Assembly: GCF_003781945.1 (NCBI RefSeq)
Contig: NZ_RJJW01000004.1
Coordinates: 90,824-154,823 of the forward strand
Direction of reading: 5' to 3'
DNA from: Halorubrum sp. CSM-61
Lineage (GTDB): Archaea; Halobacteriota; Halobacteria; Halobacteriales; Haloferacaceae
Length of the DNA stretch: 64,000 nt
Numbering within the stretch: position 1 is the first letter of the stretch; each line of letters opens with the position of its first letter. Below are positions 9,925-56,074 of the stretch, piece by piece. The position numbers and the translations under genes are program-made. Below the pieces are notes generated by a model. It saw only the letters and a list, made by a program, of their open reading frames with translations, searched no databases and was not told the DNA's origin.

Positions 9925-9957
9925 ACGGGGATCTCACCACGTTCGGTCCTGCTGAAC

Positions 9958-10404
9958 TACGGCGGGAGTGCGTATGTCAGTGTGGTTGATCGGTCGTTTA
10001 TACGTGATCGAGCGGTGTTGCTGGCGGCTGTTTATAAGGGTACGACGGTGCTGCGGGAAAAGCGTTCAAAGCCCCAGCCGCTGTGGACGGCGCACGCTCG
10101 CTGCGCGTCTCACTCGGTCGCTCACGGTGTTCTCTCCCTCGTTGCGGTGCTTGAGTCGCCTGCGCCGCCCACAGCGGCTGCCCCTTTGAGTCCCACCCGC
10201 CCGCAACCGCACCGCAGCCTCACGCCTCCCCAGCCTCGTCGCTGGCGGCGGCAGCCGCCAGCGACTCCCTCGCGCGTGCACCTCGCGCCCTGCGGGCGCT
10301 CGGCGGCACGCGCCACCGCACTCGTCATTTATAAGCGATCGTCGCCGTCCACACAGCCGTTTAAATACCGAACTACCGCCGCCGATCTGCTTTATCCACT
10401 CCCG
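9958..10404 (+). repeat. Structured dispersed element, copy A
   Basis: No gene is seen in this 0.5-kb stretch, but it shares ordered blocks with elements B and C. Blocks in order: a GTTTATA box (9996-10002) with GTGATCGAG, a second TTTATAAG (10031-10038), GCCCCAGCCG (10071-10080), GCGGTGCTT..GTCGCC, CGGCTGCCCCTTTGAGTCCC (10175-10194), CCTCCCCAGCCTCG, CTCCCTCGCG, CGCCACCGCA, TTTATAAGCGATCGTCGCC (10329 on) and a terminal CACTCCCG. Three hairpins are visible. Stem 1 pairs 10077-10094 with 10161-10178 (17 of 18 bp). Stem 2 pairs 10238-10248 with 10255-10265 (11 of 11). Stem 3 pairs 10272-10279 with 10306-10313 (8 of 8) around an inner 6-bp hairpin at 10285-10299. It sits between the 3' ends of convergent genes. 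Confidence 0.8.
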
Positions 10405-10443
10405 AAGCCGGTCGTCGCTGCGGACTGCAACGGGGTTCTCTCC

Positions 10444-45254: not shown

Positions 45255-45645
45255 GGCGGAATTTATAAAGGCGGTGCGGTGGCGCGTGCCGAGGAGCGCC
45301 CGGTGGGCGCGACTCGCACGCGCGAGGGAGTCGGTCGCCCGAGCGAAGCGAAGGGCGGCCGACGAGGCTGGGGAGGCGTGAGGTGCGGGGCGGTGCCGTC
45401 GGGTGGGACTCAAAGGGGCAGCCGGGAGGACGAAGCACGGCGACGCAAGCACTGCAAGGAGCGAGCGAAGCGAGCGACTGAAGCGCGTGGTTCGAGAGAG
45501 CGAAGCTCTCTCGTCATCACGAAAGGCGCTTCGCGCCTTTCGAACGACAGCGAGCCGCGCGAGTCCTCCCGGCTGGGGCTTTGGAGGTGTTCACCGCAGA
45601 GTCACCGATCGCTTATAAGGGATCGACAACGACACCAACGCCGAC
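45255..45645 (-). repeat. Structured dispersed element, copy B (minus strand)
   Basis: Read on the minus strand it has the same ordered blocks as A and C: CTTATAAGCGATCG, CTCTGCGGTGAAC, GCCCCAGCCG, GCAGTGCTT..GTCGCC, CGGCTGCCCCTTTGAGTCCC, CCTCCCCAGCCTCG, CTCCCTCGCG, CGCCACCGCA and a final CTTTATAAA. Stem 1 pairs 45421-45431 with 45563-45573 (11 of 11 bp), stem 2 pairs 45330-45340 with 45353-45363 (10 of 11), and stem 3 pairs 45282-45289 with 45316-45323 (8 of 8). The stem-1 loop is longer (131 nt) and holds extra hairpins whose tips are CGAAG or CTTCG. It lies between the 3' ends of aroA and the presenilin-like gene. Confidence 0.78.
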
Positions 45646-55495: not shown

Positions 55496-55517
55496 GCGCC
55501 GGGAACCGACTGTGAAC

Positions 55518-55949
55518 GATAGCGGGAGTACGTATTGCAGATCGTTTGGGTGGTTGTTTATAAGTGATCGAGTGGTGTTGCTGTCGGCTGTTTATAAGTG
55601 ATCGACGACGCTGCGGTGACGGCCTCCGAAGCCCCAGCCGTGAGGCCGCAGTACGCTCGTTGCGCTCCTCGCTCGCGCTGCTCGCTGCGGTGCTTACGTC
55701 GCCTACTGCGGCCTCACGGCTGCCCCTTTGAGTCCCTCCCGCCGCAACCGCCCCGCGCCTCACACCTCCCCAGCCTCGCGGTTCGCGCTCTTCGAGCGCT
55801 CACCGCGTCCCTCGCGGGCTGGCTCGCGGCCGCCACCGGCGACCGCTCGCAGGCGCGCCACCGCATCGTTCTTTATAAGCGATCGTCGCCGTCGCTCACG
55901 ATCGTTTAAATACCGCATCTCTGCCACCGATCTGCTTCACCCACTCCCG
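55518..55949 (+). repeat. Structured dispersed element, copy C
   Basis: Same blocks in the same order as copy A: AGCGGGAGTACGTAT, two TTTATAAGTGATCGA boxes (about 55557 and 55591), CGCTGCGGTGA, GCCCCAGCCG, GCGGTGCTT..GTCGCC, CGGCTGCCCCTTTGAGTCCC, CCTCCCCAGCCTCG, CGTCCCTCGCGGG, CGCCACCGCA, TTTATAAGCGATCGTCGCC and CACTCCCG. Stem 1 pairs 55637-55653 with 55704-55720 (17 of 17 bp), with a sequence unlike that in A or B. Stem 2 is GCGGTTCGCGCTC/GAGCGCTCACCGC with two mismatches; stem 3 is weak. It lies between the two-repeat protein gene and purK. Confidence 0.8.
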
Positions 55950-56074
55950 TGATCGAGCAAAAAGGATGCTTCGGCGATCAGCTGCTGTATACTGCACTCT
56001 GTCTGCAGAACGATATTTCAACAGAGCGGCGAAGTCTGAACACGATCGTGGTCAATATACTACCCGATGTGGGA

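Follow-up and report, generated by a model that had tools for sequence, protein, structure and literature searches.

A family of dispersed haloarchaeal repeats built around a conserved hairpin module, probably non-autonomous mobile elements

We analyzed a 64,000-nucleotide stretch of the Halorubrum sp. CSM-61 genome (termed the window) and found that three of its intergenic elements belong to a large family. We consider, with a probability of about two in three, that this family consists of non-autonomous haloarchaeal mobile repeats, similar to REPs, PATEs, and MITEs and built around one conserved hairpin module. Its copies have spread to many sites, and individual copies found in one species are missing from the corresponding site of other species. 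Some copies moved inside IS6-family-type ends, and the inner segment can flip between flanking inverted repeats. In the module, the helices P0 and P1 are kept paired through compensatory changes.

Results

Anatomy of the three copies in the window

The original prediction listed short blocks shared by copy A (9958 to 10404, + strand), copy B (45255 to 45645, - strand), and copy C (55518 to 55949, + strand), and a MAFFT alignment indeed placed these blocks in the same order in the three copies. The block GGCTGCCCCTTTGAGTCCC has three exact matches in the window and none in 100 shuffles, even when 3 mismatches were allowed. The intervening segments, initially described as not aligning, are mostly hairpin stems, and the arms of P1 pair within each copy. 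As had been noticed, all copies are intergenic and two lie between convergent genes: these are A and B, the latter flanked by genes for an EPSP synthase and an SPP-type protease, and C is located upstream of purK. Two corrections to the first description concern the boundaries, since inverted repeats of ~22 bp bound A and C (B is without them) and an IS6-type terminus is found at 56015 to 56028, ~60 bp past copy C. The features are the following:

9954 to 9975, + strand: left inner inverted repeat of copy A (GAACTACGGCGGGAGTGCGTAT; the genome-wide consensus TGATCGATAGCGGGAGTGGGTAT has 85 matches in the genome)
10031 to 10037, no strand: left TTTATAA box of copy A (from sequence; spacing conserved over the copies)
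10064 to 10194, + strand: P0 arms, C4/C4 internal loop, and variable P1 hairpin of copy A, ending in GGCTGCCCCTTTGAGTCCC
10195 to 10320, + strand: linker, P2 hairpin, CTCCCTCG, P3 hairpin, and CGCGCCACCGCA of copy A (from sequence and alignment)
10328 to 10334, no strand: right TTTATAA box of copy A (from sequence and the right-side spacing over the copies)
10385 to 10408, - strand: right inner inverted repeat of copy A, degenerate (from sequence)
45275 to 45586, - strand: core of copy B, with P0/P1 at 45405 to 45586, linker, P2, P3, and the end block at 45275 to 45286
45489 to 45545, - strand: twin-hairpin cassette nested in the P1 hairpin of copy B (from sequence; similar in other copies)
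55514 to 55535, + strand: left inner inverted repeat of copy C
55591 to 55597, no strand: left TTTATAA box of copy C, with a further box at 55557 to 55563
55624 to 55736, + strand: P0/P1 hairpin module of copy C
55737 to 55865, + strand: linker, P2, P3, and end block of copy C
55872 to 55878, no strand: right TTTATAA box of copy C
55937 to 55958, - strand: right inner inverted repeat of copy C
56015 to 56028, - strand: IS6-family-type terminus (ATTTCAACAGAGCG) downstream of copy C, remnant of an outer mobile vehicle

Size and distribution of the family

We then looked for the 19-base core block GGCTGCCCCTTTGAGTCCC in the Halorubrum genome that contains the window (G000), whose copies were examined as fetched stretches. 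With at most 2 mismatches, the block has 177 matches in this genome (84 and 93 for the two strands) and the reversed pattern has none, which contradicts the possibility, considered at the outset, that only three copies exist. The block is present, with at most 1 mismatch, in 33 of the 34 other Halorubrum genomes, at 3 to about 140 copies, so that most genomes of the genus hold between 3 and about 177. A search with GCCCCTTTSAGTCCCACCC, which accommodates either version of the motif (at most 2 mismatches), gave matches in 218/293 genomes of the order; copy numbers ran from 0 to 188 per genome. The reversed pattern gave at most one match, in few genomes; against this control single matches are not meaningful, and the counts of at least 50 copies obtained for 34 genomes are. 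Outside the order, only two stray one-mismatch matches were found among 242 genomes of the phylum. Divergent copies are carried by haloarchaeal plasmids. Chance was rejected as the source of the matches on account of the shuffles and the reversed controls (zero and near zero), and so was a viral origin, since neither phage records nor viral contigs contained a family match.

A known RNA family was also rejected: no Rfam family reached its gathering threshold over the copies, in agreement with the first impression that the element is not a known archaeal RNA. The Rfam matches in the window are a tRNA and sot0042 (positions 125 to 310; 169.8 bits), an RNA associated with IS1341-type (TnpB) genes, which lies directly before an open reading frame at 313 to 1353.

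A hairpin module with compensatory changes

Outside Halorubrum, the recurrent unit is one hairpin module, in which a variable stem and its loop are enclosed by GAAAGCCCC on one side and GCCCCTTTCAGTCCCACCC on the other, with a linker and further hairpins (CTCCCCAGCC, P2, GTCCCTCG, P3) as optional parts. The usual form in Halorubrum carries the linker, P2, and P3 after the module. In the module itself, P0 is a short outer helix (xAAAG/CTTTx); it is followed by an internal loop of unpaired CCCC/CCCC and by the long stem P1, whose sequence may change freely provided that pairing is kept. Outside Halorubrum, loops of two unrelated types occur in it; the second type (GCGGTCGCT...ATATCC...GGATAG...GACGACCACGTAAACGCGAG) was observed between the same constant ends in loci L261 to L290, from other genera. 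The P1 loop has the standard orientation in 239 copies and the inverted one in 6.

To evaluate the pairing of P1, we used 142 distinct arm pairs and found 89% pairing within copies versus 60% when the arms were dealt among copies (z of ~27), most variable positions showing three or four types of Watson-Crick pairs. P0 proved to exist in four matched types, one per genome among the copies examined: CAAA/TTTG in 76/76 scorable copies of G000, CGAA/TTCG in 8/8 copies of G015, GGAA/TTCC in 8/8 copies (6 from G137 and 2 from G156), and GAAA/TTTC in 22/23 copies from other genera. At the outermost position of P0, 99% of copies have a Watson-Crick pair versus 77% after shuffling, and at its other variable position 98% versus 82%. 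The genome-specific spellings of the motif in G015, G137, and G156 (TTCGAG, TTCCAG; loci L421 to L440) are matched on the other P0 arm. The outer pairs of P3 are nearly invariant, show no covariation, and provide no support for that helix. Overall, the pairing of P0 and P1 above that of shuffled arms contradicts a lack of covariation, and the proposal that the element is maintained for its fold is supported, through compensatory changes, for these two helices. Two orthologous copies, L208 and L172, show a clean loss of P1, and in L052 only a few bases of it are left.

Two smaller repeats were also seen. Twin-hairpin cassettes of ~55 to 60 bp occur within the stems of elements (window positions 45489 to 45545; L004, L039, L046, and L290); similar versions exist in another family and recall the insertion of SMR-A in palindromes. 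A 5' unit, which combines TTTATAA (alternatively, a related AT-rich box) with either CCAAAGCCCCAGCCG or CGAAG, is found in tandem upstream of L240, L001, L011, and L054, with several such units at L240.

Genomic setting

Genes were called around the copies with a simple codon-usage gene finder, which left 80 usable copies. None of them overlapped a predicted open reading frame (0/80), as expected from the view that the elements encode no plausible protein, and their stems covary; degraded coding sequence was rejected on these grounds. Convergent genes enclose 43 copies, divergent genes 10, and the two kinds of tandem gene pairs 14 and 13. Convergent gaps are thus enriched compared to the gaps of the window (43/80 versus 9/42; Fisher p = 0.0009), an effect whose size is approximate since the background comes from this window alone. 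No strand preference relative to tandem genes was detected (14 versus 13).

The enrichment between convergent genes would be in line with site-specific nucleoid, termination, or mRNA-end hairpins, which stop read-through or bind a chromosomal protein and are spread by gene conversion, and the single P0 haplotype per genome fits either co-evolution with a binding protein or homogenization. We find this explanation very improbable, as 37/80 copies lie in gaps of other kinds, many genomes of the order lack the repeat, and decayed and truncated copies persist.

Evidence for mobility

We then compared 88 copies extracted from G000. Many pairs align with 80 to 91% identity over ~450 bp, from about -215 to +235 around the core, and have different flanks; for copies at different sites that are 85 to 91% identical, the alignment stops at the inverted repeats. 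Inner inverted repeats of the consensus TGATCGATAGCGGGAGTGGGTAT are present at both ends in 24/88 copies, and beyond them we distinguished two types of ends (alpha and beta), both starting with GGCTCTGTTGAAATCC. Some copies (those of types A and C) are located between the ~22-bp inverted repeats, inside units of ~600 to 680 bp with IS6-family ends, and type B copies are without inverted repeats. IS6-family terminal inverted repeats accompany a subset of copies only and are represented in the window by the one-sided remnant at copy C. That both inverted repeats or recognizable IS6 ends are found in a minority of copies speaks against the mobile-repeat reading.

The same termini are not restricted to the hairpin copies. 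One unit bounded by them holds a transposase open reading frame with the IS6/IS240 DDE domain (PF13610), and others contain a lipoprotein gene, a MATE-type transporter, or membrane proteins, as read from the translations. At L411, L414, L416, and L420 (contigs C11, C8, C22, and C23 of G000), the inserts between GGCTCTGTTGAAATCC termini hold no transposase and consist of ordinary genes or of short cargo, with 8-bp duplications in some cases, and these units appear to be small passenger transposons. The duplication is perfect at L420 (GGTTTTTG) and near-perfect for several other cargo units. A 1.3-kb pair of IS6-type ends at L411 was considered as an autonomous element and rejected, as it holds the lipoprotein gene and no transposase.

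Among the hairpin copies, L363 provides a complete example: it measures 682 bp, has both ends, and is flanked by a target duplication identical at 7 of 8 positions (GTCCTGTC/GTTCTGTC). The orthologous site is unoccupied in 10 other Halorubrum genomes, in which the intergenic sequence is too diverged for the exact junction to be placed. The target duplications of most other hairpin copies have decayed, which again counts against the mobile-repeat reading, and no convincing duplication was found directly at the inner inverted repeats.

Evaluation of orthologous sites revealed that the inner segment at site C is inverted in G005 compared to G003 and G012, with collinear flanks. Site C is thus the one site where both orientations were observed, and this in a comparison of species. 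Among the copies of G000, the inner segment is found either way round with respect to the alpha and beta ends. Site A harbors the element in a single orientation across many species, with degenerate or absent versions in others, and sites B and C are patchier across species. The constancy of place and orientation at site A counts against the mobile-repeat reading, as it also fits selection for a local role. The original prediction had left the choice between a structured RNA and a mobile element; its mobile half is supported by the 85 to 91% identical dispersed copies, by their presence or absence between species, and by the IS6-type ends.

Search for a mobilizing factor

The family resembles REPs, which are high-copy extragenic palindromes often found in inverted pairs, and we asked about IS200/IS605-like (RAYT) tyrosine transposases, which would move such repeats as single-stranded hairpins. 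Copies in excess of 100 per genome, extragenic and palindromic, agree with this idea, as do the inverted pairs of modules 37 to 46 bp apart in several genomes of other genera and a gap preference like that reported for REPs (PMC3733652). Y1 transposases were, however, not associated with the repeat: they are lacking in 11/34 genomes with at least 50 copies versus 97/293 overall (compared by hand from two tables, each genome being counted individually), so that high-copy genomes have no excess of Y1_Tnp, and several genomes with 58 to 106 copies have none. We therefore rejected dependence on an IS200/IS605 Y1 transposase. In addition, the unit is 100 to 450 bp long instead of 20 to 40 bp, and visual inspection of the ends examined revealed neither a GTAG nor a CGTC tag. 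REP/BIME-type repeats moved by a RAYT are in our opinion improbable. An autonomous partner of the core was not found either; together with the lack of a Y1 association, this weighs against the mobile-repeat reading.

RNA or single-stranded DNA

TTATAA precedes the hairpin by 36 or 39 nt in 108/273 copies and follows the last block at a distance of 7 to 9 nt in 87/179 copies, compared to a background of 0.8% of window 70-mers in both cases. Judging from their sequence and position, these TATA-like boxes at both sides would be compatible with promoters that face inward, one for each strand, or they may be parts of the element. Their fixed spacing suggests a transcript, which is a point against mobile repeats and in favor of a multi-copy structured RNA family, in which every copy would have its own TATA box and yield a folded RNA with a regulatory or scaffold role. 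Strong folding (on both strands, with z of -3.6 and -4.2), the compensatory pairs, and the persistence of the element at one site across many species also agree with a family of RNAs. We nevertheless regard it as unlikely, given that copy number varies from 0 to 188 within one order and from 3 to about 177 within most of the genus, that orientation relative to tandem genes shows no preference (14 versus 13), that P1 is lost from L208 and L172 and reduced in L052, and that the two strands are not distinguished. Indeed, mismatch asymmetry differs between the helices: on the + strand, A.C exceeds G.T in P1 (41:17), P2 has no such excess (10 A.C versus 8 G.T), and the few P0 intermediates lean the opposite way. 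Assigning the strand from G.U versus A.C was dropped, because P1 suggests the minus strand, P2 and P0 disagree, and the copies are related. Judged from sequence, the fold may act as RNA or as single-stranded DNA.

Discussion

If the family consists of mobile repeats, as we favor, a trans-acting factor (a transposase, a recombinase, or a hairpin-binding protein) would recognize the folded single strand. Recognition would rely on the constant ends and the internal loop and would tolerate any paired stem. Insertions would survive mainly in gaps between convergent genes, because they cause the least harm to the host there. We propose more tentatively that these are order-wide mobile hairpins read by shape, that the specificity of the factor may have shifted between lineages with both P0 arms following in all copies of a genome, and that stems and even whole loops may be exchangeable.

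The closest systems in behavior are REPs/BIMEs and the PATE, SMR, and MITE repeats of Haloquadratum walsbyi. REPs and BIMEs, with their RAYTs, are likewise high-copy, extragenic, imperfect palindromes that form inverted pairs and lie preferentially in gaps remote from promoters (PMC2817692, PMC3733652), but the family described here is longer, archaeal, and without a Y1 association, and it combines a conserved CCCC/CCCC internal loop and constant ends with a freely varying stem. The Haloquadratum repeats are also transposase-free, mobile, and palindromic, with small repeats nested in palindromes and repeat-mediated deletions of the core (PMC3119063). PATE palindromes match IS605-type ends, and PATEs have no terminal inverted repeats (PMC3119063), whereas in our family inverted repeats and IS6-type ends occur in a subset of copies and the core hairpin extends across the order. 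The separation from PATEs and SMRs was made on their descriptions, and sequence identity to a published PATE or SMR family is possible.

IS6-family MITEs and passenger units share with our family the GGCTCTGTTGAAATCC termini, the cargo between the ends, and, in some units, the 8-bp duplications, but here only some copies are of this kind, and the core hairpin also exists without such ends and in many other genera. The attC sites of integrons have constant ends and a palindromic middle conserved in shape rather than in sequence. By analogy, the hairpin module may be likened to them, although no integrase or cassette array was seen here. In the open literature, our search found no matching description, and the papers containing a motif string were unrelated ones. 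The family is thus apparently undescribed in that literature.

Most of the haloarchaeal genomes sampled contain the repeat, and its density reaches about one copy per 16 to 21 kb. Its copies, which form inverted-repeat pairs and invertible segments and serve as cargo between IS6-type ends, affect annotation, assembly, and rearrangement. With matched P0 types that are fixed per genome, whether a cellular factor reads the fold becomes directly testable, and candidate factors can be sought by comparing the genomes of each P0 type.
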